Below the pieces are notes generated by a model, which worked only from the letters and a program-made list of their open reading frames with translations, did not search any database and had not been told where the DNA came from. Positions 1,249 through 16,550 of a DNA stretch of 64,000 nucleotides are shown here, piece after piece. Origin of the DNA: Euzebya pacifica (GTDB lineage Bacteria; Actinomycetota; Nitriliruptoria; Euzebyales; Euzebyaceae); assembly GCF_003344865.1 (NCBI RefSeq), contig NZ_CP031165.1, positions 1,741,910 to 1,805,909 on the forward strand. Direction: 5' to 3'. Within the stretch, counting starts at the first letter, position 1. Each line of letters starts with the position of its first letter. The position numbers and the translations under genes are program-made.

Positions 1249-1261
1249 CCTGCGGTTCTGC

Positions 1262-1335
1262 TGGAGCGGGTGAGGGGAATCGAACCCCTGTAGCTAGCTT
1301 GGAAGGCTAGGGTTCTACCATTGAACTACACCCGC
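1262..1335 (-). tRNA. tRNA-Gly (UCC anticodon), CCA encoded
   Basis: Read on the minus strand, the 74 bases start with acceptor GCGGGTG, which pairs with CACCCGC at the 3' end, followed by an encoded CCA. The D-arm GTTC/GAAC, the anticodon stem CTAGC/GCTAG around loop CTTCCAA, and the T-arm with TTCGATT are all well formed. The anticodon is TCC, reading GGA/GGG glycine codons. It lies between convergent pgm and the divergently oriented Crp/Fnr gene. Confidence 0.97.
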
Positions 1336-1499
1336 GGGGGAGGGGAGTGTAGCGCGTCGCCCGGGCCAGTCCGAACCGGTTGCGGCCGCCGTGTTCCTGA
1401 TCGGTCCCGACACCTTCTGGACAGGTCGGGTTTGGCAATGTCGGTTTCCAGCCATCCTTCGCCCAACTGGGTACGAACCTGAAAGGGCGGGACGCCTCC

Positions 1500-2246
1500 A
1501 TGGCAAAGGGAAAGACGAGACCGATGGAAGAACTGACGCGCCGACACGCGATGTGGATCGCCCGAGCGATGGCTCGCACCGACGGCAGCCCCCTCACCGC
1601 GAACGACATCGTGGCCCTCGAAGAGGCCTGCGTACCCCGCCGGGTCGAGGCAGGCGAAGTGCTGATCGCCAGCGGCGACGTGGTCGACGAGGTCCACATC
1701 GTCCGTGACGGCGCGGTCCACCTGACCGTCCGCAACCCCACGCTCGGCCGCCAGACCATCGGCCTGGTCGAACCCGGCGGCGTCATCGGTGACGTGGCGG
1801 TGTTCCTCGGCCACACGATGCCGTTCGACGCGATCGCCGACAGCGACTCCACCGTCCTGACAATCACCCGCGAACGCCTCCTGTCTCTCCTCGCAGGGTC
1901 GCCGTCGCTGTCGCTGCGCTGGATCACCTCGGTGTCCAAGCGACACGACGAGATCCAGCGTCGGCTGGTCACGCTGCTGACCAAGGACCTGTCCGCCCAG
2001 ATCGCCACGCTCCTCATGGACCACCGCGTCGAGGAAGACGGCGCCTGGATGGTCAAGATGCCGCACCAGACCATCGCCCACCTGCTGGGTGCCCGTCGCC
2101 AGTCCGTCAGCCGTGTGCTCGGGCAGATGCGTCGTGCCGGCCTGGTCCGCTCCCGGTACGGCGCCGTGGAAATCCTCGACCTGAGCGGCGTCGCCGACGC
2201 CGCCGGCATGGACGACCTCGACATCGAGATCGGCCTTCCCGACTAG
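1500..2246 (+). CDS. Crp/Fnr-family transcriptional regulator
   Basis: Predicted cytoplasmic DNA-binding regulator of 248 residues. The N-terminal two thirds is a cyclic-nucleotide-binding-like beta barrel (about residues 40-150, with the GDVAVF stretch where the phosphate-binding cassette usually lies). The C-terminus is a Crp-type helix-turn-helix (about residues 180-215, around IAHLLGARRQSVSRVLGQM). The cassette does not show the full RxS pattern that contacts cAMP in E. coli CRP, so the ligand is unknown. There is no N-terminal or internal cysteine cluster, arguing against an FNR-type iron-sulfur sensor. The ATG is preceded by GGGCGGGA. The gene is monocistronic, with a strong hairpin 18 bases after its stop. 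Confidence 0.88.
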   Translation: MAKGKTRPMEELTRRHAMWIARAMARTDGSPLTANDIVALEEACVPRRVEAGEVLIASGDVVDEVHIVRDGAVHLTVRNPTLGRQTIGLVEPGGVIGDVAVFLGHTMPFDAIADSDSTVLTITRERLLSLLAGSPSLSLRWITSVSKRHDEIQRRLVTLLTKDLSAQIATLLMDHRVEEDGAWMVKMPHQTIAHLLGARRQSVSRVLGQMRRAGLVRSRYGAVEILDLSGVADAAGMDDLDIEIGLPD

Positions 2247-2263
2247 CTTCCGCCACCCCCCGT

Positions 2264-2296
2264 GCGACGTCCCGGTCCCCTCGGCCGGGACGTCGC
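2264..2296. terminator. Hairpin terminator between convergent genes
   Basis: A perfect 12-bp inverted repeat, GCGACGTCCCGG with its complement, is separated by 9 bases and sits between the convergent Crp/Fnr and TetR genes. A T-run is lacking, as is common for GC-rich actinobacterial hairpins. It could serve both directions. Confidence 0.6.
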
Positions 2297-2338
2297 CAAT
2301 TCTCTGGCGCTCCGACGACCATGGTGATCCCCGGACGA

Positions 2339-2974
2339 TCACCGGGGTGCCGGCAGCCCCAGGAGCGGACCCACCACCCGGTCCAGCACGTCGGCGATGA
2401 CGGCGTCGCCCTCGACGTCCGGCAGCTGGATGGCCAGCCGGACAGCGGCGCCGGCGAGGTGTGAGGCCAGGAACGCACGACGTTCCAGGTCGGCCGGAGC
2501 CACCTGCGGCACCACGGACGCGAGCGCCTGCGCCAGCAGATGACCGTTGGTGCGGCTGTCGTCGATGTCGAGCTGGGCGAGGGCCGGGTCGGCCACAGCT
2601 GCGCCCCACACGGCCGCGAACGCGTCGTCCTGGCGATAGAGCGCCCAGTACGCGTCAAGCGCGCGAGCGACCGCCGCGCGGGCGTCATCGGGCCCCTCGA
2701 TCCCGTCCCCCAGGGCGTCGGTCAACCGCTGGCGGACGACCTCGGCGTAGTGCTCGGCAAGCACGCGGACGATGGCCTGCTTGGACGGGAAGTAGCGATA
2801 GATGGAGGGGAGGGAGACCTCGGCCGCCGTCGCCAGCCCGCTCATGGTCATCGCATCGATGCCCTCGGCGGCGATACAGGTGATGGCCGCATCGAGGATC
2901 TGCTCGACCCGCTGCCGGCTGCGGTCCTGCTCGGGCACACGCCGGGCTCCAGCGGCGTCGGGGTCGACTGACAT
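2339..2974 (-). CDS. TetR-family repressor
   Basis: Predicted repressor of 211 residues. The N-terminal TetR helix-turn-helix (about residues 15-60) shows the usual signature: RVEQILDAAI, a glycine-rich turn, then SLPSIYRYFPSKQAI. The C-terminal two thirds is the variable helical ligand and dimerisation domain. I chose the ATG at 2974 because GAGGA lies 8 bases upstream; a longer frame reaching 3016 would put the start inside the operator-like dyad. It is divergent from the flavin monooxygenase gene at 3064, and the dyad at 3006-3026 lies between them. The simplest reading is that it represses itself and the monooxygenase until a small hydrophobic substrate binds; that role is inferred from layout alone. 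Confidence 0.88.
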   Translation of the reverse strand: MSVDPDAAGARRVPEQDRSRQRVEQILDAAITCIAAEGIDAMTMSGLATAAEVSLPSIYRYFPSKQAIVRVLAEHYAEVVRQRLTDALGDGIEGPDDARAAVARALDAYWALYRQDDAFAAVWGAAVADPALAQLDIDDSRTNGHLLAQALASVVPQVAPADLERRAFLASHLAGAAVRLAIQLPDVEGDAVIADVLDRVVGPLLGLPAPR

Positions 2975-3005
2975 CGCGGCAATCCTCGCACAGCCCTTGA
3001 CGTGA

Positions 3006-3026
3006 CACTCAATCATGTATTGAGTG
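3006..3026. promoter_or_regulatory. Probable TetR operator in divergent promoter region
   Basis: CACTCAAT and its exact complement ATTGAGTG are separated by 5 bases, a 21-bp dyad of the size TetR dimers bind. A second 6-bp dyad, ACGTGA/TCACGT, follows at 3028-3046. Both lie between the divergent tetR-like gene and the monooxygenase gene, where binding would block both promoters. Assignment to the neighbouring TetR is inference. Confidence 0.65.
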
Positions 3027-3063
3027 AACGTGACATAGTTTCACGTCTGATGGAGGTTCGTCC

Positions 3064-4416
3064 ATGATCCGCACTGCAGCCGTTGTCGGTGCCGGCCCGA
3101 GCGGCCTGCTCGCGGCACGAGCGCTCCGGGCAGAGGGCATCGAGCCGACGATCTTCGAGCGTGGCCCCGATGTGGGGGGAATCTGGAACATCGATGCGCC
3201 CGGGTCGCCGATGTACGAGTCGGCGCACTTCATCTCCTCGCGCACGCAGTCGGGGTTTCCCGGATTCCCCATGCCCGAGGACTACCCCGACTACCCCGAC
3301 CACCGACGAATCCTGGCGTACATCCGAGACTTCGCCGAGGTGTGGGGCCTTCGTCGCCACCTGCGAACCAACACCGTCGTGGAGCACGCGGCACCGACGC
3401 CCGAGGGGGCCTGGACGGTGACCACGGCCGGGGCGGCCCCAGAGGTGTTCGACGCCCTCGTCTGCGCCAACGGCGTCACGTGGGAGCCGAACGTTCCGGA
3501 CCTGCCGGGTGCCGACACCTTCAGCGGTGAGCTCAGACACTCCCGGACCTACCGCGACCCCTCGGAGTTCGACGGAAGGCGCGTGGTGATCGTGGGGGCG
3601 GGCAACAGCGGAGTGGACATCGCCTGCGACGCGGCCCGTTCCGCTGCTCGTGCCGTCCTGTCGATGCGGCGGGGCTACTGGTTCGTGTCCAAGCACCTGT
3701 TCGGCATTCCCACCGACGTGATCGTCGCTGATCCACCGCCGATCCCGATCCCTCATCGGGTGGAGACCTGGGCGCTGGAGGCCTTGCTGAAGGTCGTCGT
3801 CGGCAAGCCACAACGCTTCGGCTTGCCCGCCCCGGACCACCATGTCCTGGAGACCCATCCGATCGTCAACACCGCGGTGCTGCACCACATCTCCCACGGG
3901 GATCTCGAGCCCAAGCCCGACGTGGCACGGCTGGACGGCGAGCATGTCGTGTTCACGGACGGGTCGAGGGTGCAGGCCGACCTGGTGCTCCTCGCGACCG
4001 GCTACCAGCACGCCATTCCCTACCTCGACGAACACTTGCTGCCCTGGGACGGTGGCCGACCACAGCTGTACCTCAACCTGTTCCCGCGTGACCTGCCCAC
4101 CCTTGCGGTCGTCGGGATGATCGAGTTCGCATCGGCTGCGTACGGCCACTTCGACCACATGGCGCAGCTGGTCGCGGGCGTCCTGGCCCTCAGCGACGAC
4201 GATCCTCGGCGGAAGGTGGCGGCCGAGCTGCGTCGGACCCATCAGCCCGACCTGCGGGGCGGGCACCACTACGTCGACTCGCCCCGCCATGCCAACTACG
4301 TGGAGGCCGAGACCTACGAGAAGGTGCTCGACGACGTTCGGACCCGCATCGGGCTGAACCCGTGGCGGGACTGGGTCGACGCCCCTGTCCCATCACGCCC
4401 CTCGACCGTGGGCTGA
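3064..4416 (+). CDS. Flavin-containing monooxygenase (class B)
   Basis: Predicted FAD/NADPH-dependent monooxygenase of 450 residues that would insert one oxygen atom into a soft nucleophile (N or S) or a ketone; the substrate cannot be read from sequence. The FAD-binding Rossmann motif GAGPSG is at residues 9-14. The FMO fingerprint FxGxxxHxxxY starts at residue 153. The NADPH-binding motif GAGNSG is at 178-183, and a late ATGY-type stretch (LLATGYQHAIPY) marks the C-terminal part. Length and motif order match bacterial FMOs. The ATG follows GATGGAGG. Divergence from a TetR gene across a tight dyad suggests substrate-induced expression, typical of detoxification or catabolic monooxygenases. 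Confidence 0.9.
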   Translation: MIRTAAVVGAGPSGLLAARALRAEGIEPTIFERGPDVGGIWNIDAPGSPMYESAHFISSRTQSGFPGFPMPEDYPDYPDHRRILAYIRDFAEVWGLRRHLRTNTVVEHAAPTPEGAWTVTTAGAAPEVFDALVCANGVTWEPNVPDLPGADTFSGELRHSRTYRDPSEFDGRRVVIVGAGNSGVDIACDAARSAARAVLSMRRGYWFVSKHLFGIPTDVIVADPPPIPIPHRVETWALEALLKVVVGKPQRFGLPAPDHHVLETHPIVNTAVLHHISHGDLEPKPDVARLDGEHVVFTDGSRVQADLVLLATGYQHAIPYLDEHLLPWDGGRPQLYLNLFPRDLPTLAVVGMIEFASAAYGHFDHMAQLVAGVLALSDDDPRRKVAAELRRTHQPDLRGGHHYVDSPRHANYVEAETYEKVLDDVRTRIGLNPWRDWVDAPVPSRPSTVG

Positions 4417-4517
4417 CGGTCACGGTGGCCCAAGGACCACCAAGCGACTTGTTCGGAGGCGAGTAGTCGGGACGGCCGGACGTCCCTCGGTGACGGGTGT
4501 GGCACGTCGACCGGGTG

Positions 4518-4545
4518 TGCACCCGACGTGCACCCGGCATGCACC
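4518..4545. repeat. Three TGCACC repeats phased at 11 bp
   Basis: TGCACC occurs at 4518-4523, 4529-4534 and 4540-4545, exactly 11 bases apart, so all three copies face the same side of the helix. They lie 60-90 bases upstream of the oxidoreductase start at 4605, in the 188-base gap after the monooxygenase gene. This is a candidate regulator-binding array or upstream promoter element; no cognate regulator is evident nearby. Confidence 0.5.
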
Positions 4546-4604
4546 GCCCGGGCGCACGGTGTCCGCACCACGCAACACACCCGACGAGCAGAGGGAACAC
4601 GGCC

Positions 4605-5681
4605 ATGCACACCAAGAAGACGAGTACGGGAACCAGCGGAACGGGTGGCCCCCGACTGGCGGCGGCCACCCTGCCAGACAGCTCGCTTGCCGCGGTGCGC
4701 TACGAGTACGGCCCGCCCGCGGGTATCGAGGTCGCGCCACGACCCGTGCCGACGCCCGGACCCGGCCAGGTGCTGCTGCAGGTGCACGCGGGCGGTCTCG
4801 ACCGCGGCGCATGGCACCTGATGGCGGGCGAGCCGTACGCCGTGCGACTGGCCGGGTACGGGGTGCGACGACCGAAGCAGCCGCGCCTCGGGTTGGACGT
4901 CGCCGGCACGGTGGTCGCGCTCGGCGAAGGAGTCGAGGAGTTCGCCGTCGGCGACGAGGTGTTCGGGATCGCGGATGGCTCGTGGGCCGAGCACGCGGTG
5001 GCAGACGTGACGCGGCTCGCCCTGCGTCCGGCGAACGTCTCGCCGGTCCAGGCGGCCGTCTCCGCGGTGTCGGGCATCACCGCGCTCCAGGCGCTGGTGG
5101 ACGTCGCGGGTGTCGAGCCGGGCCAGCGGGTGCTGGTGGTGGGGGCCTCGGGCGGCGTCGGCAGCTTCGCCGTCCAGCTCGCGGTGGCGCTGGGGGCGCA
5201 GGTCGACGGCGTCGCCAGCGCAGCGAAGGCCCCGCTCGTCCGGGACCTCGGTGCCAGCCGGGTGTACGACTACGCGACCGAGGACCCCTACGACGGGTCG
5301 CAGCGCTACGACGTCATCATCGACACGGGCGGTCTCAACCCGGTCCGGGTCCTGCGGCAGGCGTTGACGACGCGCGGGACGCTGGTGATCGTCGGTGGCG
5401 AGGGCGGGGGACGGATCACCGGCGGTGTCGGTCGTCAGATGCGCGCGGCGATGCGCTCTCCGTTCGTCCGGCACCGCCTCGCGATGTTCATCAGCGCAGA
5501 GGCGAAGGGTCACGTCGCGAAGCTCGCGGCGTTCCTGGAGGACGGCTCCGTGGTCCCGGCTGTGGGCGCGACCTACCCGCTCGGCCGCGTGCGGGAGGCG
5601 ATCGAGGACCTGCTGGCCGGCCGCGCACGTGGCAAGTCCGCGATACTCGTCGCCACCGGCGAGGACGGGGGATCGTCGTGA
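4605..5681 (+). CDS. Medium-chain zinc-free oxidoreductase (quinone reductase-like)
   Basis: A 358-residue member of the MDR superfamily, likely an NADPH-dependent reductase of quinones or alpha,beta-unsaturated carbonyls. The N-terminal GroES-like domain has GxDVAGTVVALGEGV around residue 105, and the Rossmann domain carries GASGGVGSFAVQLA around 185. The structural and catalytic zinc-ligand cysteines of alcohol dehydrogenases are absent, as in the quinone oxidoreductase branch. I chose ATG 4605 because AGAGGGA lies 8 bases upstream; a frame extending to 4497 has no such signal. A serine-, threonine- and glycine-rich N-terminal extension of about 20 residues precedes the domain. It overlaps the next small gene by 4 bases. 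Confidence 0.87.
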   Translation: MHTKKTSTGTSGTGGPRLAAATLPDSSLAAVRYEYGPPAGIEVAPRPVPTPGPGQVLLQVHAGGLDRGAWHLMAGEPYAVRLAGYGVRRPKQPRLGLDVAGTVVALGEGVEEFAVGDEVFGIADGSWAEHAVADVTRLALRPANVSPVQAAVSAVSGITALQALVDVAGVEPGQRVLVVGASGGVGSFAVQLAVALGAQVDGVASAAKAPLVRDLGASRVYDYATEDPYDGSQRYDVIIDTGGLNPVRVLRQALTTRGTLVIVGGEGGGRITGGVGRQMRAAMRSPFVRHRLAMFISAEAKGHVAKLAAFLEDGSVVPAVGATYPLGRVREAIEDLLAGRARGKSAILVATGEDGGSS

Positions 5682-5851
5682 AGCTGTCGCGACGTGATCA
5701 GACCGTGCTCGGCATCGGCATCTCGGTGTGCGGCGCGCTGTTCCTGCTGTCGAGCACGATCCCCGACGGTCTCGGCCTCGCCCTGGGCGTGGTCGGCATC
5801 GGCGTGCTCGGCACCCGCCCGCCGGCTGGGCCCCGCGACGAGGACAGATGA
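5678..5851 (+). CDS. Small membrane protein, 57 aa
   Basis: Starts with GTG overlapping the TGA of the oxidoreductase gene, with a purine-rich AGGACGGGGGA just upstream, so the two are probably translationally coupled. Its product has a short basic N-terminus (KLSRRDQ), two hydrophobic stretches broken by STIPDG (about residues 10-26 and 31-46), and a charged C-terminus. That is a hairpin-like membrane protein. I do not recognise a family. The stop codon is 19 bases from the left attachment repeat of the mobile element, so it is the last chromosomal gene before the insertion. Confidence 0.6.
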   Translation: MKLSRRDQTVLGIGISVCGALFLLSSTIPDGLGLALGVVGIGVLGTRPPAGPRDEDR

Positions 5852-5870
5852 TCCGTCTGCCGAAGGGTCG

Positions 5871-5921
5871 AACACGGGGTTTTCGCGTCGGGACGGCCGG
5901 ATTCGAACCGGCGACCCCCGC
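5871..5921. repeat. Left attachment site (51-bp direct repeat)
   Basis: Identical over 51 bases to 13283-13333. With one mismatch the match extends to 5865-5921 versus 13277-13333. It contains the T-arm and 3' acceptor strand of tRNA-Pro read on the minus strand, but the tRNA 5' half is missing here. It is therefore the duplicated half left by site-specific integration. Confidence 0.93.
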
Positions 5922-6493
5922 GGGAAAACCGCAGGTCAGAGGTACTTCGAGGTCACCACTTTGACCTTTGGATGCCTGGTTTCTAGCGGAGAACAGATCG
6001 TCTTCCGAGGTCCCAATCTAGTCCCGGATCCGGTCGTCTGCGAGTGATTGTGGTGGCTATCTGGTGGGCTCTGGCGGACTCAGTCAATCGCACACGGTGG
6101 GGGCTGGGAGTGGTTCGGCTCCTTTGCGGCGGCCGCAAGGGACATGGCCCCCCACGTTCACGTCCAGGGACATGAACGGGGTGAGGAAGGGCACCACGAA
6201 ACCGGTCGTCGCAGCGTCCGGGGTGAAGCTGAGGGCCGCCTGATCCTTGGATCGCCGGGAAGGGTGGAAGCAGCCCTGACAAACGACGGGAACGGCCAGC
6301 ACCGTCCGATGGTCGTGGCCCGGCTAGCGAGACGGAAAGGTGTACGTGAGGAACCAGCGGCTGAACGACTCTCAAGATCAGACCACCAGCTCGAACCTGA
6401 CGGATCAGAGGCTCTTCGTTCCTTTGCTACGCCGCCCCCCGGGTTCGTGAGGGTAGAATGGATGGCCTATGGTGTGAGTCGCTAGGTGCCGGG
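5922..6493. other. Element interior without a recognisable gene
   Basis: About 570 bases with only short frames lacking recognisable domains or good start signals. Near the left end, GGTCA-type words recur (5933-5972), including GGTCA and TGACC in opposite orientation. These could be arm-type binding sites for the integrase, but that is speculative. Otherwise I see nothing definite here. Confidence 0.4.
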
Positions 6494-7055
6494 TGATCTT
6501 CCATGGCGGACCGCATGATGGGCAGGTCTTGGAGGGAGTACCGCAACAAGATGGGCATCGTCTCCGGTTCGTGTCACGGTATCGGGACTTCGTTTACGTA
6601 AGGGATCATGGCCGGTTGTTGGAGCCGCATCTGGTCGGTTCGCGGTCCGCACCGAGCTGCCGATGAAGGCGCTGGAGATGGCGCTGAAGACCCGTGACGT
6701 GCGGCCCGGCACGACGCTGGTGCACCACACCGACTCCGGGTCGCAGTACCTGTCCGACACCTACGGCAGCCGGCTGGAGGCCGCGCAGTTGCGGCAGTCC
6801 GCGGCCCGGTCGGCCTACGACAACGCGATGGCCGAGTCGTGGTTTCAGACCCTGAAGAACGAGCTGATCCACCGCCACCGGTGGGCCACCCGCGAGGCCG
6901 CCGACCTGGCCGTGTTCAGCTACATCGGCTGGTACAACCAGCGACGACGGCGCTCCTCCCTAGACATGCGAAGCCCCGTCCGCTACGAACAAGAGGAGGC
7001 CATCCCCACCCTGTTCATGCACGCCTGAACCTGTCCGTGGGACTGGGGAAGATCA
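6494..7055 (+). mobile_element. Decayed IS3-family insertion sequence
   Basis: The outer ends are TGATCTTCC (6494-6502) and its exact complement GGAAGATCA (7047-7055), ending in TG...CA as IS3-family ends do. The right end continues inward with CTGTCCGTGGGACTGGGG, resembling an IS3-family terminal repeat. Only the last third of the transposase frame remains, and the left part is deleted or replaced. No target duplication is evident. Confidence 0.6.
6642..7028 (+). pseudogene. IS3-family transposase OrfB, C-terminal fragment
   Basis: Encodes roughly the last 125 residues of an rve-type DDE integrase domain. It keeps the second catalytic Asp (HTDSGSQY) and the catalytic Glu (NAMAESWFQTLKNEL), plus the usual closing WYNxxRRxSSL segment. 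Similarity can be followed upstream of the first ATG (6663) through VRTELPMKALEMAL to about 6642, after which the frame reads unrelated sequence. The first catalytic Asp, the helix-turn-helix and OrfA are missing, so it cannot transpose by itself. Confidence 0.85.
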
Positions 7056-7085
7056 ACCTTCACCAGCCAAACCACGCTTCATGAC

Positions 7086-7122
7086 GAAGAGCCAGTTTCC
7101 TCCCAAGAGTGAAGAGCCAGTT
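7086..7122. repeat. 12-bp direct repeat GAAGAGCCAGTT
   Basis: Two exact copies at 7086-7097 and 7111-7122, 25 bases apart start to start. They lie just after the IS3 remnant and overlap the stop of the lipoprotein gene. This may be a rearrangement scar or binding site; function is unknown. Confidence 0.4.
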
Positions 7123-7696
7123 AACCCGCCTGACCATCACAGGCGGCGCCAACACCGACTTGTACTGTTTGGCTCTGGCCGGCCTTCTCTACAGTCACAT
7201 CGATGCATTGCAATTCGTCAACGTAGAATCCGCCGGGGTACGCGGCCCACTGTTCGCCTCCACAGCCGGAACCTGAAACCGCCTTGTCCGGGTTGGACGG
7301 ACTACCCCAACCCAATTCCGAGTGACCCACGGCATCTACTATCTCAAGATGGACCACGGCGTCCGCTCGCAATAGAAGACCTGCCTTTGCAAAGTACCTC
7401 GGCCCCTCGGATTCAGGCTGCCGGACAGCCTGTAGGGGTGTAGCTGAACTAACCGCTGTGGGCAGGGCTACATCATCGAGAATGATCTCGTATTGCTCTG
7501 GGACCACCGCGTCGATCTCGACCGATCCCTCACAAGTGAGCATTGCCTCCTCATCGAGCCCCACTTGCTCGGTTGCCTGGGTATCGTCTGACGACACCGA
7601 TGCGGCGTCACTACGGTCAGTAGAGGAGGTGCATCCAGCTGAAGCTACAAGCAGAATTCCTACCAGGAATCTCGACAGTGCTGTAGTTGCTCTCAT
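7121..7696 (-). CDS. Predicted lipoprotein, cargo of the mobile element
   Basis: A 191-residue exported protein of unknown function. A lipoprotein signal peptide is clear: basic start, hydrophobic core LVGILLVAS, lipobox SAGC with Cys at about residue 22, then a Ser/Thr/Asp-rich linker. The mature part contains three further cysteines and no recognisable domain. The ATG has GAGGAG 7 bases upstream, so expression looks intact. Base composition is clearly less GC-rich than neighbouring chromosomal genes, and codon use includes many A/T-ending codons, suggesting recent acquisition. It is flanked by the IS3 remnant and a probable IS256 remnant, and may confer an envelope trait on the host; that is inference. 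Confidence 0.7.
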   Translation of the reverse strand: MRATTALSRFLVGILLVASAGCTSSTDRSDAASVSSDDTQATEQVGLDEEAMLTCEGSVEIDAVVPEQYEIILDDVALPTAVSSATPLQAVRQPESEGPRYFAKAGLLLRADAVVHLEIVDAVGHSELGWGSPSNPDKAVSGSGCGGEQWAAYPGGFYVDELQCIDVTVEKAGQSQTVQVGVGAACDGQAG

Positions 7697-7847
7697 GAGC
7701 TACTCCTCACGTCTGAATTGGCCAACCTTACCAAACCACCGACTCACGGCGCAACACGCTCAAGTGCGGTGACCCCGATCAATCCGATCTGTACAAACCC
7801 CTACTACTTGCAATGATGCAAGGCTTGACTCGGAACCGGCGAAGCAA

Positions 7848-8108
7848 TCACATGGGACCGGCGTGCTTCGTTGTATTCCAACTAGTCCGACAGCGATGAA
7901 GATCAAACCCCATGAGCCTGCCACAATCGCGGAATACGAGGTCGGCCAGAACCCCGTTGGGGCCGTTGGGGTCCAGACCCTTCTGCTGAGCCTTGCCGAC
8001 CAACTGCTCAGCCACCTCCCGCTCGGCGTCTGCCCAGCCCGCTGCCGCGGGCCCCTTCGTGCCGGTCGTGTCCTCCACCACCTCAGTGATCGTGTCGGTG
8101 TCTTCCAT
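7848..8108 (-). pseudogene. Probable N-terminal remnant of an IS256/mutator transposase
   Basis: An 86-codon frame with a good ribosome site (AAGGGA upstream of ATG 8108). Residues about 24-57 (WADAEREVAEQLVGKAQQKG, then LDPNGPNGVLADL) resemble the N-terminal helix and GPxGLL stretch of actinobacterial IS256-family transposases. The resemblance stops near residue 58, and the DDE domain that should follow is absent. A small acidic stand-alone protein is the alternative. The identification is from memory of the family pattern and is tentative. Confidence 0.4.
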
Positions 8109-8208
8109 TGCTGTCCCTTCCAGCCGAGCCCAAGCTCAGCGTGTCAGGCCAGCTCACTTCCTCGTTGAACTGACACTCTCCAGTCTTGGGCAAGGCTGTC
8201 CCCGGGGG

Positions 8209-11200
8209 TCACATGGTTGGGCCTGATGGAGTGCGTGCGATCTGTGTGGGGGTTGGCCGACGTCGCCGTCCCGCGTCCCGCCGTTGGAGGACACGAAGGG
8301 CTCGAACTGCCTCTCGGCGGTCAGGGTGGGACTTGTTGCCCGGGTCCTGACCCAGTGGCGTGTGGTCGGTGATGCGGTGGCGGTCACGGTAGGTCGCGAT
8401 GGCTCGTGCGTGGGCCCACCAGGTGCGCCGCCGCTCGGGGTCTGTCGGCGGTGGGTTGAGGTGGCGGATCCAGGGTTGTTGTTCGATGGCAGACCGGAGC
8501 GCCTTGTCGCCATGCTGTTCGAGGAGGCGGGAACGCTGTCGCAGCGCACGGGTGGTCGCGTCGGATGCCTGGGATTGGGTGGCGCCGATGGCCTCGTGTT
8601 CGGCAGCGAGTTGGGCCGCGGTGTTCCAGCGGGCCTGTTCGTCGGCGATGACCTCGTGAGCGGAGCGGGCCGCGCCGTGGCGGCTGAGTATCCGGGCGAG
8701 GACGGCGTCGCCAGGGGTGGCGGCGGGGCCCAGATGGGGTTCAGCCGTTGGCTGGTCGGTCGCGGTGTAGACGTGGTTGGCGGAGCGCCCGCGGGTGAGG
8801 GCGACGTAGAGCTGCTCGCGGGTCATCGCGGGCGTGGCGATGGTGTGGGCGGTGTCGACCGTTGAGCCTTGGGCTCGGTGGACGGTGATGGCGTAGCCGA
8901 GGTCGACATGCCGCGCGGCGTAGTCCGCGGGAATCCGGACGGTGGCGGCAGGCTGGTCGGGGCGGTGGGCGGTGAGGCTGCCGTCGGTGTGGGTGGCGGT
9001 GACGGTCCAGCGGTCGCCGTTGCGTACCCATCTGCCGTCGCTGGCTTGAAGGGTGCGGCGGTTGCGGCGGGTGAGGATCCAGTCGCCAGCGCTGGCAGCG
9101 GTGCCGTCCCGCAGCGGGACCCCGAGCTGAGCCGATACGTCGCCGTTGGCCTGGCGGTCCAGGCGGGCGCGCCGGTTGAGCGTGGTGACCTGGTCGTTGT
9201 CGGCCGCGATGAGCACTGAGGTGTGGCCGTCAACCAGGTCGTTGCGCCAGGCCAGGTATGCCTGTTCGAGCATGTGATCCGTGGCACCGTCATGGATGCG
9301 GCCATGCTCGCGATAGGTGTCGATGACCGCGGGGTCGCCGTCGCGGAGGCGTTGGGTGGCGTGGCGTTCCCAGTGGTGATGAAACCGGTGGATCTGGGTG
9401 AGGCGGGGATGGTCTGGTCGGTCCCGGGCGAGCAGGCCGAGGGCGCCGCCGGCACCAACCGCGCCGAGCTGGTGGGGGTCGCCCACCAGCAGCACCTTCG
9501 CTCGCCGCTGTTCGGCGTGGCCGGTGATGAGGTCCAGGGTGCGGGTGGAGGCCAGCGACGCCTCGTCGACGATGACGAGCTGGCCGGGCCGGAACCGCCG
9601 GCGGCCGTGGAGGTGCTCGTGGGTCCACTTGGCCGTGTTCTCCGTGGCGATGCCAAGATCATCGGCCAGGACCTGCGCGGCAGCCGCGCTCGGGGCAAGG
9701 CCGATGACCGACCCGGCCCCGTGGGTGTGTTCCCAGGTCTGGCGGAGGGCAGCGAGGGTGGTGGTCTTGCCGGCGCCGGCGGGGCCGATGAGCAGATCGA
9801 GCTGACGGCCCGACGTGGCGATGCCCGCAACAGCGGCGAGCTGGTCCTGGGACAGCCCCGACCCGGATGCGACGACCGGCTGGTTGGCGAGTCGCGGTGA
9901 CGCGGTGCGGCCGCGGTCGAGCAGCCGATCTTCGGCCGCCAGCAGGGCGTGGGAGGTGTAGCGGGTGGCGTGCTTCGGGCGGAGGCGGCCGGTGCCATCC
10001 GGGCGTTGCAGCTCGGCTGGCACCGCGGTTTCGGGTGGGGTGACCCGCAGCGACGCCCGCTCTGCGGCCTCGACAAGTTGCTCGATCGCGTGGTTGCGTG
10101 CGTGGGGGGTTGCGAAGCGCAGGTGCATGGTCTGGCGGGTGGCTTCGGCGTGCAGGTTCCACCGGGTCCAGGTCGACCGCTTCTCCGACACGTGATCGAG
10201 CACGACCAGGGCGTAGCCCTCGACTGCCTCGGCTGGCAGCTCCTCGATGACTTCCGGGGACCCGGTGGGCGGGCGGAGCCATGCTGGGTCGAACCCGAGC
10301 AGCGACCGAGCCCGGTCGGCCCACCGGCTGGTCAGCTCGGCCAGGGGGTGCTGGGTCTTGCCGGGCCGAGTTGCCAGGGTGGCCTGCTGCCGAAGCTTGA
10401 TGACGATCGCTGGCGTTGGGCCAACGCCGTGCGTCGCGCGGTAGTCCGCGACAAGCCGGTCGGTCTCGGTGTCGATGGAGCGGCTGCGGGAGGAGAAGGC
10501 CTTGACCAGCTCGTCGGGGACACCGGCGATCTCCCACGCGGGGTTGCGGTCGGCGCCGCGGGTGCGCTGTTCCCATTGCACGCCGAGGTCGGCGCTGAGC
10601 CGGTCGGCAAGCGCGGCGTTGTAGCGCTCGGACAGCGCGACCAGGGCGTGGTGCACGGGGCGGCTGTCGAGGCTTCGCCACTTGCCGTCGGAGGTCGTGC
10701 AGACCTTGTTGGCGATGACGACATGGGTGTGGAGCTGCGGGTCGCCGGTGCGGGAGTCGTAGTGGTCGAAGGCGGTCGCGATCAGGCCGTCGACGTCGAG
10801 CTGGACCACGCCGGCCCTGCCGGCGCGGGTCGCGGCGACCTCGCGCTCCATCAACTCCACGACGTCGCCGATGGCGGCGTGATGGGCGGCCACGATCCGC
10901 TCCCGGACCTCGGGAGGTGCGAGGGCCCACCACACCGACACCGACTTGGGGGCGGAGAAGGTCAGGTCGAACCCGGCCACCGCCCGCCTGGTCGGCCGGG
11001 ACGCCTCCTCTTGCTCGATGCGCTGCACGGCCGAGGCCCGCTGCTCCGTGCCGAGCCCACCGTCCAGCGAGGCGACCCTGGCGCCGACCCGCTCCTCGCG
11101 GCGCTTGTACTGGGGGAACGCCTGGCCGAGGGCGTCGCCGGTGACCGGGTCACGGCCGGCGCCGAGCAGCCGGGCCATCTGGTCCTCGGTGACCACGTCG

Positions 11201-11382
11201 CCCGGCTCCAGGCCGAGGGCGGCCAGCCCGCCGCCGAGCCACCGGCCTGGTGGGGTGCCGGTCTTGGCGTAGTACTCCGCCAGCGGCAGCGACCGGTCGC
11301 GCGGCCCGTCGGCGACGGCGACGGAGGCGGTCAGATAGCGGTAGCCGTCCCCGGCTGACATCGCGCGCAGGGATACCGTCAC
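8209..11382 (-). CDS. MobF-family conjugative relaxase with RecD-like helicase
   Basis: A TrwC/TraI-type protein of 1057 residues that would nick the element's transfer origin, stay covalently attached to the 5' end and unwind the strand. The N-terminal relaxase domain opens with an MSAGDGYRYL segment holding the candidate catalytic tyrosines. Its metal-binding histidine cluster HTHVVI begins at residue 218, with an upstream HYDSRTGDPQ segment. The helicase part has Walker A GPAGAGKTT at about 533, Walker B VDEASL, and late motifs HRAQGSTVD and YVALTRGR. I chose GTG 11382, just before the conserved start; a frame running to 11670 adds only low-complexity residues, and GTG 11400 is also possible. 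No nearby coupling protein was seen. Confidence 0.9.
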   Translation of the reverse strand: MTVSLRAMSAGDGYRYLTASVAVADGPRDRSLPLAEYYAKTGTPPGRWLGGGLAALGLEPGDVVTEDQMARLLGAGRDPVTGDALGQAFPQYKRREERVGARVASLDGGLGTEQRASAVQRIEQEEASRPTRRAVAGFDLTFSAPKSVSVWWALAPPEVRERIVAAHHAAIGDVVELMEREVAATRAGRAGVVQLDVDGLIATAFDHYDSRTGDPQLHTHVVIANKVCTTSDGKWRSLDSRPVHHALVALSERYNAALADRLSADLGVQWEQRTRGADRNPAWEIAGVPDELVKAFSSRSRSIDTETDRLVADYRATHGVGPTPAIVIKLRQQATLATRPGKTQHPLAELTSRWADRARSLLGFDPAWLRPPTGSPEVIEELPAEAVEGYALVVLDHVSEKRSTWTRWNLHAEATRQTMHLRFATPHARNHAIEQLVEAAERASLRVTPPETAVPAELQRPDGTGRLRPKHATRYTSHALLAAEDRLLDRGRTASPRLANQPVVASGSGLSQDQLAAVAGIATSGRQLDLLIGPAGAGKTTTLAALRQTWEHTHGAGSVIGLAPSAAAAQVLADDLGIATENTAKWTHEHLHGRRRFRPGQLVIVDEASLASTRTLDLITGHAEQRRAKVLLVGDPHQLGAVGAGGALGLLARDRPDHPRLTQIHRFHHHWERHATQRLRDGDPAVIDTYREHGRIHDGATDHMLEQAYLAWRNDLVDGHTSVLIAADNDQVTTLNRRARLDRQANGDVSAQLGVPLRDGTAASAGDWILTRRNRRTLQASDGRWVRNGDRWTVTATHTDGSLTAHRPDQPAATVRIPADYAARHVDLGYAITVHRAQGSTVDTAHTIATPAMTREQLYVALTRGRSANHVYTATDQPTAEPHLGPAATPGDAVLARILSRHGAARSAHEVIADEQARWNTAAQLAAEHEAIGATQSQASDATTRALRQRSRLLEQHGDKALRSAIEQQPWIRHLNPPPTDPERRRTWWAHARAIATYRDRHRITDHTPLGQDPGNKSHPDRREAVRALRVLQRRDAGRRRRPTPTQIARTPSGPTM

Positions 11383-11525
11383 CGCTCGACCACCCGACAC
11401 GTCTGTCCCATGCCAGGTAGGTGCGCCGACCGGCCCTCCGCACCGGAGGTGCCAGAGGTGTGTCAGTCGTCTCGGGGGCGGGTGGATGTGCGCACCTGTT
11501 GGGTGGTGAGGTGGCGACGTAGCTG
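11383..11525. other. Gap upstream of relaxase; candidate oriT hairpin
   Basis: This 143-base gap precedes the relaxase start and contains a short dyad, CCTCCG-CAC-CGGAGG, at 11435-11449. Relaxase genes often lie beside their nick region, so this is the best candidate for an oriT in the element. No nic consensus could be recognised by eye. Low confidence. Confidence 0.25.
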
Positions 11526-11597
11526 GTGGCCGTGTCGACGATCGACGTGCCGGACGAGGTCGCGGCACGGTTGAGGACCGAGGCCGAACCTCGTGGT
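11526..11597 (+). pseudogene. Fragment of a type II antitoxin-like gene
   Basis: A GTG-started frame encodes STIDVPDEVAARLRTEAEPRG. This closely resembles the N-terminus of small actinobacterial antitoxins with an STIDVPDEVAxRLRxEA opening. After about 24 codons the resemblance stops and the frame becomes unrelated. No toxin gene follows. It looks like the stub of a lost toxin-antitoxin pair, which mobile elements often carry for stability. Confidence 0.45.
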
Positions 11598-11682
11598 GGG
11601 CCGTCCGCCACCACGAGCCCGTGCGGTGCCGCCGATTCGGCGCCACCGGCACGAGTAGTCCAGCGATCACGGAGCGCGACGG

Positions 11683-12873
11683 TCAGTCGTCGGAGTCGCG
11701 CGGGCCGAAGACGTTGTCGAGCAGGTCCGCGGTGGCGGGGTTCACCATCTCGTTGCGCTTGATGTAATGGCGGATGGTGATCCTGGGGTCGGTGTGGCCC
11801 AGCAGCTCGGCGGCCAGGTCGACAGTGGCCTGCTCGTTGACCGCGGTGGCCACGGTGCGGCGGATCATGTGCGGGGTCACGCCCTCGATGCCGGCCAAGT
11901 CCATCGCCGAGCGGAGCTGCCGTCGGACGTTGTGGGGTGACAAGGGGCCGCCGTCGCGGTTGCAGAACAGCAGCGAGTCAAGCGACCGGTCCTCCAGCGC
12001 CACCAGCCGCCGGCGAACCGCCGCCGCACAGAACGACGGCAGCGCCACCGTCCGCACCGACCGGTTCGTCTTGGGGTGGTCCTGCCGCACGAACGGGCTG
12101 TTGCGCCCACCCACCACCGTCCCCGCCAGCCGGATCGTCGGCGGCGACGACGTCACGTCGACGTCCCGACGCCGAATCGCCAACGTCTCGCCGATCCGCG
12201 CGGAGGTGCCCAGCATGACCTCCACCAGCAGGCCGAGCTGCCCGTCGGGCTTGGGTCCCGACGCGGACTGGCCGCGCTCCCAGTAGCGGATCGCCGCCCG
12301 CACGGCGTTGACCTCGACCGACGTCAGTGCGGTCGGCGTGGACGGCGGCCGGCGCAGCCGGGACACATGATCCATGGGGTTGCGCGGGAGGATCTCGTGG
12401 CGCACGGCCAAGGAGAACGCCAACCGCAGCACCACGCGAGCCTGCCTCGCGCGGTTGTAGCTCTGCTTGGCCAAGTGCTTGATGAAGGAGTCGCAGCGGG
12501 CCACGCCGATCTCCCGCAGCGTCAGCTCCTCGAACGCCGGGAGCACCAGCGTGCGCATGTTGCGCTCGTAGGTGTTGCGGGTGCTTGAGGCCAGGTGCCC
12601 CTCCAGGTCCAGGTCGTGCAACCAGTACTCGACCAGGTCAACGAACCGGCTGTCGGGGGTCAGCTCGGTGAACGTGGGCTGGACCAGCGACCGCTCGGCC
12701 AGCTTGGCCTTCAGCGCAAACTCCGCCGACCGCTGGGTCCTTGCGGTGGCCTGGACCCGGCGGAGCTTGCCGTCCCAGTCGCGGTAGCGAGTCCTCGCCT
12801 GGACCTTGCCGTTCTCGAGCGTGGTGAACTCCAGCTCGCCGAACGTCCCGATCGGGGTCCGGGGCCTACCCAC
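11683..12873 (-). CDS. int: Tyrosine recombinase, integrase of the tRNA-Pro element
   Basis: A 396-residue site-specific integrase. The N-terminal arm-binding region (about 1-75) is followed by a SAM-like core-binding domain (about 80-170) and the catalytic domain. Catalytic residues are all in place: Arg226 (ARIGET), His335 and Arg338 (HMIRRT), His360 (LGHTD) and nucleophile Tyr370 (IRHYIKR). The gene lies 410 bases from the intact tRNA-Pro end, reads away from it, and is preceded by an Xis-like gene whose stop is 6 bases upstream. Its substrate is almost certainly the 51-bp repeat at the element ends. The protein appears complete, so the element may still excise. Confidence 0.95.
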   Translation of the reverse strand: MGRPRTPIGTFGELEFTTLENGKVQARTRYRDWDGKLRRVQATARTQRSAEFALKAKLAERSLVQPTFTELTPDSRFVDLVEYWLHDLDLEGHLASSTRNTYERNMRTLVLPAFEELTLREIGVARCDSFIKHLAKQSYNRARQARVVLRLAFSLAVRHEILPRNPMDHVSRLRRPPSTPTALTSVEVNAVRAAIRYWERGQSASGPKPDGQLGLLVEVMLGTSARIGETLAIRRRDVDVTSSPPTIRLAGTVVGGRNSPFVRQDHPKTNRSVRTVALPSFCAAAVRRRLVALEDRSLDSLLFCNRDGGPLSPHNVRRQLRSAMDLAGIEGVTPHMIRRTVATAVNEQATVDLAAELLGHTDPRITIRHYIKRNEMVNPATADLLDNVFGPRDSDD

Positions 12874-12879
12874 GGCCTG

Positions 12880-13131
12880 TCACCGCCCCGAGCCCGGCGG
12901 GCCGGCTGTACCGGGCGGCTCCGCCTGCGCGTCCACCCACTCCTTCACGTCGACGGCGGTGAACCGCAGGCGCTTGCCGATGCGACGCGCCCTCGGCCCC
13001 CGGCCGTGCACCCGCCAGTCGTAGATGGTCTGCCTGGGGACGTCGAGGTAGGCGGCCAGGTCCTCGACAGTCAGCAGCTGTTCCAGCCCGAGCTGGGCGA
13101 TCTGATCGGTGTCCATACCGAACAGGTGCAC
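12880..13131 (-). CDS. Excisionase-like helix-turn-helix protein
   Basis: An 83-residue MerR/HTH_17-type DNA-binding protein with the pattern LLTVEDLAAYLDVPRQTIY followed by WRVHGRGPRARRIGKRLRF and a VDVKEWV helix. This pattern is typical of small proteins encoded directly upstream of actinobacterial integrases, where they act as directionality factors (Xis). It probably bends DNA near the attachment site and favours excision. An internal ATG at 13116 is an alternative start. Position between the integrase and the attachment repeat supports the role; DNA-binding alone would not prove it. Confidence 0.8.
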   Translation of the reverse strand: MHLFGMDTDQIAQLGLEQLLTVEDLAAYLDVPRQTIYDWRVHGRGPRARRIGKRLRFTAVDVKEWVDAQAEPPGTAGPPGSGR

Positions 13132-13282
13132 AGCCCGCCCCAGACGACTTCGGCCCCCTCGGAACCAAGACCGAACAGGCCGAGACCAGCCGATGTGGAC
13201 CCCGAGAACGCCCGAGTAAATGGAGGGTTCTTGACGACTTGCGCATGTCCACCTGCCTGGTGGTCACGGCATCCGCGGGTCA

Positions 13283-13333
13283 AACACGGGGTTTTCGCGT
13301 CGGGACGGCCGGATTCGAACCGGCGACCCCCGC
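13283..13333. repeat. Right attachment site (51-bp direct repeat, within tRNA-Pro)
   Basis: Exact 51-base match to 5871-5921. It covers the 3' end of the tRNA-Pro gene from the anticodon-stem 3' strand through the acceptor and about 17 bases beyond. Because the repeat includes the tRNA 3' half, integration leaves a functional gene. The crossover must lie within this block. Confidence 0.93.
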
Positions 13334-13373
13334 CACCCAAAGGCGGTGCGCTACCAGGCTGCGCCACGTCCCG
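13300..13373 (-). tRNA. tRNA-Pro (UGG anticodon), host of the insertion
   Basis: The 74-base minus-strand cloverleaf is complete: acceptor CGGGACG/CGTCCCG, D-arm GCGC/GCGC, anticodon stem CCGCC/GGCGG around loop TTTGGGT, T-arm GCCGG/CCGGC with TTCGAAT. The anticodon is TGG (proline). CCA is not encoded. The 5' half is chromosomal, and the 3' half is part of the attachment repeat, so the current 3' end was supplied by the element. Confidence 0.96.
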
Positions 13374-13431: not shown

Positions 13432-16305
13432 TCACCCGTGGCGCAGTGCGCCGGCCAGGGCCACGACCAGCTCGCCGAGGCGATCGCCCCAGATCGCCCG
13501 GTGTGCGGTGCGGATCGGCCAGCCGCCGGCGGTCAGCTCGAGCTGGCGACGCACGTGGGCATGCGGTCCGCCGGGGTGCAGGCGGGTGACCACCCCGAGG
13601 TAGCGCTGTTCGTCGTGCAGGACCAGGTCCACGGCGTGTCGCCCAACGGGGTACGGGGCGGCCACCCGGACCCCGGCGTCCTGCAGGCCCTCGGCCACCG
13701 ACGCGGTCCAGGGGTCCACACGTCCCACGCCATCCGGTGGGGGCGGTGGGTGGTCGACCTGGTCGAGGTAGTCCGCCACGAGCGACCCCGCCGGGGGTGG
13801 CGCGGACAGCACGACCTCCATGCGTTCCCTCGCCCTCGTGGCGAAGACGGCGAACAGGTTGGGGTCGTCGACGAACCGCCACGTCCGCGGTCCGTCGTCG
13901 GCCCCCACGCCCAGCGACGCCAGCACGACGTCGCGCTCCATCCCCTGGAAGGCGTGCACCGTGCCGATGCGCAGGCCCAGGTCGTCGATGCCCCGTCGCT
14001 GCAGGTGATCCAGGGCGGCGTTCTCCAGCGCGTCGGCCTGCGCCCGGAACGGCGAGACCACACCGACGCTGCGCAGCCCGTCCGACCGCAGCTGCTGCAG
14101 CCGGTCGATCACCCAGGTCACCTCCGCCTCGACGACCTTGCGGTCGTTGCGCGCCCCGTCGACCCGGACCACTTCGATCCGGTCCTGCCGGTCGGTCAAC
14201 GGCGTCCGCGTCGCCACGGTCACCTCGCCTCGGTACAGCTCCCGCCCAACCCACGCGAACAGGTGGGGTGCGGAGCGGAAGTGCTCGTCCAGCGTCCGCA
14301 CCGGCGCCGACGCCGCGGCCACGTCGAAGATCGAGCTGTCCCGCACGTCCAGCTTCGCCTGCAACGCAGCCGACGCCCCCGGCGCATGCACCCGGATGGC
14401 CTCCTTGACCGCGTCTCCGGCCACGAAGGACACGTGGCGCAGCTGCTGGGGGTCACCGACGACCACGGCCCGGGCCCCCCGCAACAACGCCGCCGCTGCC
14501 CTCGGCTGGTCGATCGACGACGCCTCGTCCAGGACGACCAGGTCGAACATGGCCGGCTCCAGCGGCAGCAGGTCGTCGATGTCGGCCAGCGTCCCCAACC
14601 ACACCGGCAGCGGCACGGTCACCTGCTGGCCCACGAGGGTCGCCAGCTGGGCCCGCCGCTTGGCCCGTCCGGCCCGCAGCGCCAGCGCCAGCACCCCGAG
14701 CGTCCCGCGGGCCCGTCGGTCCAGCCGCTGTTCGCTGCGGGCCATCGCATCCATCCACTCGCCGGTGCGTTCCTCGACGTCGTGCTGTGCGGCGGCCAGC
14801 CCCGGCCAGTCGATCCCGTCCAGCAGCGGGTCCGGGCTGGCGTGCAGCCGCCGCACCGCCGCGGCCAGCCGCGCGACCGCACCCAGCTCCTCCGCGGTGG
14901 GGGCCGGCACCCCCAGCGCCGCCACGAGCGACGACCATGCCCGCCGGGCCCCGGGTCGCCACCACGGCGGCTGCGACCTCCCCGTGCGCTCCAGCAGCGC
15001 CTCGACGGCGAACAGGTCGGCGGTGGCCACACCCGGCAGGCGCTGCCGCAGCTGACGTGCCTCCGGTCCGTCGCCCAGCAGCGTCGTGCCGGCCAGGGCT
15101 TCCGCCACATCCAGCCACGCGGCGTCGCGGTGCCGACGGGCCTGCTGCATCGCCGTGTGCCGCTGCTGCACCTCCGCGGCCGGCACGGCCTGCGGCTCCC
15201 CGGCCGACAGTCGCCGGGCCAGCGCCCAGCGCCGATCGCTGGACCCGAACACCACGGGGTCGGGGCCCGGCCGCCGGTCCAGCAGCTCCGAGATCGCTTC
15301 GACCGTCGCGTCGGCCTTGGCGGCCACCAGCACCGAGCGTCCGTGGGCGACGGCGTCACCGACGATGGCCGCGATGGTGTGGGTCTTGCCGGTGCCCGGC
15401 GCTCCGGCGATGACCGTCACCGGCTCGGTGCGGCTGGCGACGACGGCGGCGTGCTGCGCCTCGCTGAGCCGGTAGGCGCTGGACAGGTCGGGCCCCGGCG
15501 ACGGACCCGCCGGGGGCGGGTGGTCCAGATACAACGAGTGCAGGGCCGTCCACGTCGTGCCGACCGTGGTGTGCCATTCCGCCAGCGCCGCCGCCGGGCT
15601 GAACTCGGGTCGCGAGCCGAGCGCGAACAGGCCGGCACCCATGACGAGCCGCAGGCCCTCGGCGTCCCGCAGGGTCGAGGGCCGACCGACCGGACCGATC
15701 ACCGCCGGGGCGTCGTAGCCGATCGCGTCGACGACCCGCAGCAGCTGGGCAACGACGTGCTCGGCTGCTGGCATCCGGTCCCCGGGCACGTCCTGGCCAA
15801 GGCCCTCCAGGACGCCGACGCCCCAGTCGACCTCTTCCTCCAGTCTGGCTCGGAGGTGTCGGTCCTCCACCAGCGGGGTCAGCTCGACGTCGCCGATCCG
15901 GCGCAGCGCGTTGCGGTCCACGACCACGGGAATGGTGACGAGCGGCTCGAACCACTTGTTCAACGGTCCCTCGGCGTCGGTCTCCCCGGTCAGGAACCCG
16001 AAGCCCACGCGCAGCGACCGGGTCTGCGGGCGGATGGCGTCGACCGCGCCGAAGCGTGCCGCCAGCTCGCCGTCGATGGGCACCGCACCGGGTCGGTCGG
16101 GGGTGGCAGTCCCCAGCGACGGGACCACCCCGAGGGGCAGCCACGAGAAGTGGTCGGGAACCTGGCTCGAGGAGGAACCGCCCTGCCCCGCAGCGGCCGC
16201 CATCTCCTCCAGCACCGACAGGACCCCGTGCACACCGACCGGTGGACGGCCGGGGGGCGGGACGGGTGGCGGCTGGTGGAGGGAACCCATGGGGAGGCGC
16301 ACCAT
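13432..16305 (-). CDS. Superfamily 1 helicase with degenerate C-terminal nuclease-like domain
   Basis: A 957-residue AAA_11/AAA_12-type helicase likely acting on DNA or RNA. The first 300 residues have no recognised motif. Walker A is GAPGTGKTHTI, Walker B LVVLDEASS is followed by VVVGDPQQLRH (motif III), and late motifs VGTVHAFQGMERDVV and FATRARERM complete a UPF1/Dna2-like core. An insert of about 250 residues lies between motifs Ia and II. The last 100 residues resemble Vsr/DUF559-like nucleases (VGRHAVDLVL, then GGWPIRT and IW), but the second acidic residue is replaced in LGVVTR, suggesting loss of cleavage. ATG 16305 is preceded by AGG at good distance; a frame extending to 16635 overlaps other genes. 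Confidence 0.82.
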   Translation of the reverse strand: MVRLPMGSLHQPPPVPPPGRPPVGVHGVLSVLEEMAAAAGQGGSSSSQVPDHFSWLPLGVVPSLGTATPDRPGAVPIDGELAARFGAVDAIRPQTRSLRVGFGFLTGETDAEGPLNKWFEPLVTIPVVVDRNALRRIGDVELTPLVEDRHLRARLEEEVDWGVGVLEGLGQDVPGDRMPAAEHVVAQLLRVVDAIGYDAPAVIGPVGRPSTLRDAEGLRLVMGAGLFALGSRPEFSPAAALAEWHTTVGTTWTALHSLYLDHPPPAGPSPGPDLSSAYRLSEAQHAAVVASRTEPVTVIAGAPGTGKTHTIAAIVGDAVAHGRSVLVAAKADATVEAISELLDRRPGPDPVVFGSSDRRWALARRLSAGEPQAVPAAEVQQRHTAMQQARRHRDAAWLDVAEALAGTTLLGDGPEARQLRQRLPGVATADLFAVEALLERTGRSQPPWWRPGARRAWSSLVAALGVPAPTAEELGAVARLAAAVRRLHASPDPLLDGIDWPGLAAAQHDVEERTGEWMDAMARSEQRLDRRARGTLGVLALALRAGRAKRRAQLATLVGQQVTVPLPVWLGTLADIDDLLPLEPAMFDLVVLDEASSIDQPRAAAALLRGARAVVVGDPQQLRHVSFVAGDAVKEAIRVHAPGASAALQAKLDVRDSSIFDVAAASAPVRTLDEHFRSAPHLFAWVGRELYRGEVTVATRTPLTDRQDRIEVVRVDGARNDRKVVEAEVTWVIDRLQQLRSDGLRSVGVVSPFRAQADALENAALDHLQRRGIDDLGLRIGTVHAFQGMERDVVLASLGVGADDGPRTWRFVDDPNLFAVFATRARERMEVVLSAPPPAGSLVADYLDQVDHPPPPPDGVGRVDPWTASVAEGLQDAGVRVAAPYPVGRHAVDLVLHDEQRYLGVVTRLHPGGPHAHVRRQLELTAGGWPIRTAHRAIWGDRLGELVVALAGALRHG

Positions 16306-16346
16306 AGAACCTGCGGGCCGACGGTCGGGCACGCACACTGCGAGCC

Positions 16347-16550
16347 ATGAACGTGCCGGACCAGATCGTGTGTGTGGAGTGTCGCGGAACCTGTTACCGG
16401 CTGGGTCACGTCCCACCGGAGGGGTGGGAGCCCGGCGACTGGGTTGCCTACCGCTGCGGCGACTGCATGGACCGCTTCGACCTGCAGCTGGTCGACGAGA
16501 CCGACGACGACACCGACGGACACGACGCCACCGACCCGTACGGTCACTGA
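16347..16550 (+). CDS. Small zinc-ribbon protein, 67 aa
   Basis: Contains CxxC at residues 9-12 (CVEC), a further Cys at 16 and a second CxxC at 37-40 (CGDC), a spacing that would bind one zinc ion. The C-terminal third is strongly acidic and histidine-containing. It may be a nucleic-acid or protein adaptor; no function is established. It is divergent from the helicase gene and lies 87 bases upstream of tig in the same orientation. The gene is short, but composition and cysteine spacing argue that it is real. Confidence 0.65.
   Translation: MNVPDQIVCVECRGTCYRLGHVPPEGWEPGDWVAYRCGDCMDRFDLQLVDETDDDTDGHDATDPYGH

Follow-up and report, generated by a model that had tools for sequence, protein, structure and literature searches.

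The window analysed here is a 64-kb stretch of the Euzebya pacifica genome (C1:1741910-1805909, where C1 is contig NZ_CP031165.1; the second contig, C2, has 571 kb), and positions given without a contig or locus name refer to it. At a tRNA-Pro(TGG) gene, the window contains a small element bounded by two copies of a perfect repeat. On the minus strand, tRNA-Pro is followed by xis (13131-12880), int (12873-11683), the MobF relaxase gene (11382-8209), cargo and the second repeat. An earlier reading, made from the sequence alone, had described this segment as a minimal, helper-dependent integrative and mobilizable element (IME).

Gene content and ends of the element

The features of the conserved backbone and of the two ends are:

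13299-13373, minus strand: tRNA-Pro(TGG), the integration target, left intact by the element (attL side; ARAGORN)
13283-13333, minus strand: attL, 51-bp perfect repeat; the shared core is probably just 13299-13333, 35 bp (repeat comparison; junctions in congener G002; 35-nt cores in loci L023, L025 and L066)
12880-13131, minus strand: Xis-like excisionase-type helix-turn-helix protein, 83 aa, probable recombination directionality factor (HTH_17, 5.1e-14; TIGR01764 excise, above cut-off; 100% identical in G002)
11683-12873, minus strand: tyrosine integrase, 396 aa, catalytic R, K, HxxR, H and Y present (PF00589, Phage_integrase, 1.2e-19; aligned to 3nkh)
11450-11462, minus strand: candidate origin of transfer (oriT)/nic motif CACACCTCTGGCA, 13 nt, 80 nt upstream of the relaxase start codon (motif association)
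8209-11382, minus strand: MobF (TrwC-type) relaxase-helicase, 1057 aa, GTG start at 11382 (TrwC, PF08751, 9.7e-96; AAA_30, 6.1e-61; NF041492 MobF, above cut-off)
5871-5921, minus strand: attR, second copy of the 51-bp repeat, core 5887-5921 (repeat comparison; G002 junctions)

Each gene of the Xis-integrase order and the MobF relaxase named by the sequence-only reading is backed by matches to profile models. The catalytic residues are also intact, as had been claimed: those of the integrase and the histidines of the relaxase HUH motif align with solved homologues, the H and HTH of the latter with TraI/TrwC. The relaxase combines the TrwC domain and HUH motif with a C-terminal SF1 helicase, which places it in the MOBF family. 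Among the larger open reading frames (ORFs) scanned between the repeats, a set that does not cover every small ORF, we found no match for a coupling ATPase, a type IV secretion system (T4SS) or Rep, in line with the proposed absence of Rep and of a coupling ATPase.

Positions 5865-5921 and 13277-13333 have a single mismatch in 57 positions. Within them, the perfect stretch of 51 bp (5871-5921 and 13283-13333), which had been noticed before, has a negligible probability of arising by chance in 64 kb. ARAGORN identifies the sole intact tRNA-Pro(TGG) gene of the window at 13299-13373 on the minus strand, confirming that an intact tRNA gene lies at one end of the element, and the repeat consists of the 3'-terminal 35 nt of this gene and 16 nt downstream. 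The claim that the ends are resolved to the base went too far. In G002, the native flank CCAACGGGAAAG is present at the intact tRNA-Pro gene and at the far repeat, whereas the element end has CGGGGTTTTCGCG, as in the window; element and target therefore share just the 35-nt tRNA part. The cores in L023, L025 and L066, which are relatives from other genera, are also 35 nt long and occupy the same tRNA-Pro position. As judged from these junctions, the crossover should fall somewhere within the 35-bp core, where the symmetric T-arm CCGGTTCGAATCCGG would be a natural candidate. The extra 16-22 nt common to the window repeats go beyond the requirement of the integrase and may be flanking sequence retained from a previous host of the same type. 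From the spacing of the repeats, the excised circle is predicted to have 7412 bp, which corrects the previous estimate of about 7.5 kb.

Movement among relatives and the cargo segment

The comparison with congeners comprised this genome (G000) and three others (G001, G002 and G003). G002 contains the same backbone at the same tRNA gene, and 8182-13351 is 97.5% identical at the DNA level versus 85-90% for the chromosome on either side. The Nei-Gojobori estimates of synonymous divergence (dS) between G000 and G002 are 0.054 for the relaxase gene, 0.031 for int and 0.015 for xis versus 0.61 for a flanking helicase gene, and the third-position identity of int is 97% versus 72-75% for two other flanking genes. 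The G002 element differs from the window copy in its cargo (left of 8182) and in its junction. The rise in identity occurs within the tRNA gene, a position expected from site-specific insertion and not from ordinary homologous replacement. The divergence values indicate that the backbone moved recently between species. This strengthens the earlier suggestion that the element is still mobile; excision itself, which that suggestion includes, is predicted only. The description as minimal is also fair, as the same backbone belongs to an element of ~9.6 kb in G002 and to a version of more than 18 kb in G001.

G001 keeps the order tRNA-Pro, xis, int and MobF, at identities of 67%, 78% and 56-60%, and the apparent other end of its element is on a second contig. 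G003 keeps the neighbouring Crp-like gene and has one tRNA-Pro gene; the second repeat and an integrase of this kind were not found in it. None of the relatives compared has both repeats with the segment missing. The integrase gene is single-copy in the 6.37-Mb two-contig genome, the next matches being 29-39% identical over partial length. Three of the four congeners have it, as opposed to none among 57 further relatives from the class, and integrases with 58-72% identity are common in Micrococcales and neighbouring groups, where 38 of the 39 tRNA genes found just upstream are tRNA-Pro. Such a patchy distribution fits horizontal spread.

Several differences between the congeners concern the surroundings of the element. 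The Crp-like gene lies on the 5' side of tRNA-Pro in G001 and G003 and on the 3' side in G000 and G002 (window 1260-13373 versus L130, L131, L132 and L133), and the tRNA-Pro segment appears to be inverted between these pairs. Window positions 2300-5870, with monooxygenase-like and alcohol dehydrogenase-like genes, are missing from G002 at the corresponding place. In addition, G002 has a second tRNA-Pro-like sequence between the intact tRNA gene and the element end (L130:16241-16313, region 16219-16424), whose 3' 53 nt equal the tRNA and which is perhaps a remnant of an earlier insertion.

The cargo side of the window copy contains the following features:

5922-8182, no strand: variable cargo of low GC content (57-64%), not common with the G002 copy save for the terminal ~235 nt (GC profile; comparison with G002)
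5922-6157, no strand: element arm next to attR, 85% conserved in the G002 copy, probably the arm-site region of the integrase (G002 comparison; L023/L025 arms)
6663-7028, plus strand: broken IS3-family OrfB transposase, C-terminal part only (profile 262-369 of 369) (NF033516, 4.1e-33, below cut-off)
7121-7696, minus strand: 191-aa ORF with a lipoprotein-like N-terminus and no family match, possible cargo (ORF list, domain scans)
7848-8108, minus strand: 86-aa ORF with no family match, possible cargo (ORF list, domain scans)

Arms similar to that at 5922-6157 are found in L023 and L025 (TCTGACC-GGTTTTCC-GGGGTCG). The cargo ORFs of the window gave no match with Padloc or Pfam; at the corresponding place, G002 has genes for an HNH nuclease and a cell-wall-binding-repeat protein.

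A candidate oriT motif and the other MobF genes of the genome

The genome has four further intact MobF genes, five in total, two of them in tRNA-integrated elements and one in an element with a T4SS and a coupling protein. The first tRNA-integrated element, of ~20.4 kb, occupies tRNA-Arg(ccg) (C1:1304161 to about 1324567) and has a 77-bp perfect repeat (L016:14161-14237 and L017:14590-14666). Immediately beyond it are a broken MobF gene and a third, partial repeat (31 bp, L016:6625), which suggest accretion. The second, of ~18.5 kb, occupies tRNA-Arg(cct) (L136:6698 to L015:10262; C1:4581697 to about 4600232, region up to 4600261), has a 22-nt repeat and carries a large AAA/WD40-repeat protein as cargo. 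In L019 (C1:2869000-2888800), a MobF gene stands amid probable metal-transport and redox genes, with no tRNA gene or nearby tyrosine integrase; G002 has a counterpart of similar length at C4:402734. The T4SS element at ~C1:2.41-2.44 Mb encodes MobF, VirD4/TraG, a TrbL/VirB6-like protein, an AAA_10 ATPase (weak match), Prim-Pol, a ParB-like protein (weak match) and an integrase. Only one TraG/VirD4-type coupling gene (TraG-D_C) scored above the cut-off genome-wide, 0.67 Mb from the tRNA-Pro element. From its gene content, the T4SS element is a plausible candidate helper.

By comparing the DNA upstream of MobF genes, we derived the motif CAC[AG]C[CGA]TCT[GT]GCA. Its distance from the MobF start codon is 35-80 nt in the congeners as well as in Cryobacterium, where the relaxases of the loci concerned share just ~50% identity. 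In a genome-wide search of the four congeners, 18 of 20 matches to CACRCVTCTKGCA lay closely upstream of a co-oriented MobF gene, and these 18 cover the five intact MobF genes of this genome. The motif also turned up ~106 nt upstream of the relaxase start in a MobF locus from an IMG/VR contig that was retrieved once the motif had been defined. We did not find the motif upstream of Leucobacter or Microbacterium MobF genes or of relaxases with less than 40% identity. The reversed pattern used as a control gave 14 matches in the same four genomes, and the matches at C1:325095 (inside an ORF) and C2:560728 (intergenic) were therefore taken as chance. The latter (C2:560728-560740, L173:7729-7741) is a lone motif ~5 kb from a ParA-like gene, with no MobF gene; at chance level, it is a possible orphan oriT.

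Based on its position, we propose CACRCVTCTKGCA as a new putative oriT/nic region. The titles and opening abstract lines of the literature searched contained no report of a MobF nic site in Actinobacteria. In its wider form, the proposal is that a MobF clade of high-GC Gram-positive-type bacteria uses the motif as its nic region, and that numerous IMEs and one or more T4SS elements of a single genus have it in common; we see an even chance for this. The motif could instead be a promoter or a repressor-binding site of the relaxase gene, and its location 35-107 nt upstream of the start codon would suit an operator as well. We consider this rather unlikely, since elements whose integrases differ have the motif ahead of their MobF genes, at relaxase identities down to ~50% in the Cryobacterium loci, and no regulator gene was seen that accompanies all of these MobF genes. 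An oriT, moreover, usually adjoins its relaxase gene (PMC4853378), and the two roles can coexist. If the motif is indeed the nic region, islands with different integrases use one relaxosome type, a shared helper could drive them, and transfer could extend to islands or replicons with the motif alone.

Nature of the element and comparison with known systems

We propose that the segment is a canonical, relaxase-encoding IME (iMOB) of 7412 bp in tRNA-Pro(TGG) that depends on a helper, and assign this reading a probability of about 0.88. The segment is integrated, with a recombinase and direct repeats (att), encodes its own relaxase and has no coupling protein or channel match; with Int, Xis and MobF present, the integrative, relaxase-encoding and helper-dependent character assumed before is well supported. 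According to this proposal, Xis and Int would recombine the two 35-bp cores to excise a circle and leave the tRNA gene intact. The MobF relaxase would nick the circle, with the motif 80 nt ahead of the relaxase gene as the probable site, and its helicase domain would unwind the strand. A T4SS element in the same cell would take the strand over by its coupling protein and export it through its channel, and Int would re-insert the circle into tRNA-Pro after arrival in the recipient. The nicking site and the choice of helper are our inference.

Several points weigh against this proposal. Excision is deduced by comparing sequences, the 83-aa protein is assigned as Xis by domain type and position, and the candidate helper T4SS is part of a separate element, with a presumed compatibility. 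The broken transposase on the cargo side means that the element is partly decayed. Furthermore, an uninterrupted tRNA-Pro gene, expected in relatives, does occur in G003, bare and without this integrase, but its downstream region is not syntenic: no syntenic empty site with both window flanks was present among the three other congeners, and the bare tRNA-Pro genes of G003 and G004 have other downstream neighbours.

The broken IS3 transposase, together with the low-GC cargo on the left, would also suit an immobile remnant of a larger T4SS integrative and conjugative element (ICE) or mobilizable element that has lost its transfer genes, as would the size of the related G001 element and the T4SS element with a related MobF in the same genome. 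Yet none of Int, Xis and MobF is truncated, their catalytic residues are kept, and a nearly identical backbone is present in a second species. Since the G002 copy has a very low dS and a different junction, it is the reduced backbone itself that moved recently, and decay to an immobile remnant is improbable. Phages too use tyrosine integrases at tRNA 3' ends, and the best phage integrases are 38% identical; a remnant of a prophage or phage satellite might be considered for these reasons. We rejected it as very improbable: the scanned ORFs include no structural or packaging gene, a MobF relaxase is present, and a relaxase scan of viral contigs returned one locus only. An actinomycete integrative and conjugative element (AICE) of the pSAM2 type was rejected as well, with no match for Rep or FtsK-like TraB in the ORFs scanned, and neither VirD4 nor VirB4, expected in a T4SS ICE, was found inside the element in these scans.

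Having set these alternatives aside, we compare the proposed IME with known systems. Like the canonical IMEs (PMC5704250), it has its own relaxase, no coupling protein and no channel. The relaxases of the canonical IMEs known in 2017 were of the MobP, Q, V or C types, with no MobF or MobH among them; the one actinobacterial IME listed, ATE-1, encodes MobV (Guedon et al., 2017, PMC5704250). In 2021, 24 delineated MOBF IMEs of 5.8 to 272 kb were described in Mesorhizobium, among them the 5.8-kb IMEMsp. M2A.F.05-1 and IMEMsp. M2A.F.02-2 with a lone MOBF gene (PMC8627217). Like the tRNA-Pro element, these are chromosomal, mostly tRNA-integrated, helper-dependent and equipped with MobF and no T4SS. 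In most of them, traA and traC are divergent genes of a Ti-like traACD locus (PMC8627217), whereas here MobF directly follows xis-int, traC and traD were not found, the host is high-GC and the relatives of Int are from Actinomycetota.

A 2011 survey (PMC3218068) covered AICEs in tRNA genes and actinobacterial ICEs with TrwC relaxases. These elements share the tyrosine integrase, the tRNA 3'-end site and, in the T4SS type, the TrwC relaxase with the element, which in contrast has no Rep, FtsK-TraB, VirD4 or VirB4 match. The tRNA-Pro xis-int islands L023 and L025 from Micrococcales/Actinomycetales resemble it in an Int of 70% identity, the xis-int layout and the 35-nt core. MobF was not found in them; the integration module is common and the transfer module is not. 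These two islands (L023:9480-17345 in an Ancrocorticia and L025:9480-19086 in a Microbacterium metagenome-assembled genome) are themselves near-identical across genera, with P-type ATPase and DUF305-like cargo.

Taken together, the kind of element is already known, and the tRNA-Pro element is a compact member from a group of hosts with few described examples. Along with its neighbours, it indicates that compact MobF IMEs exist in a genus with 2 to 12 MobF matches per genome, and the motif provides a concrete oriT prediction, which can be used to find mobilizable islands and their helpers in groups without a mapped oriT in the literature searched.

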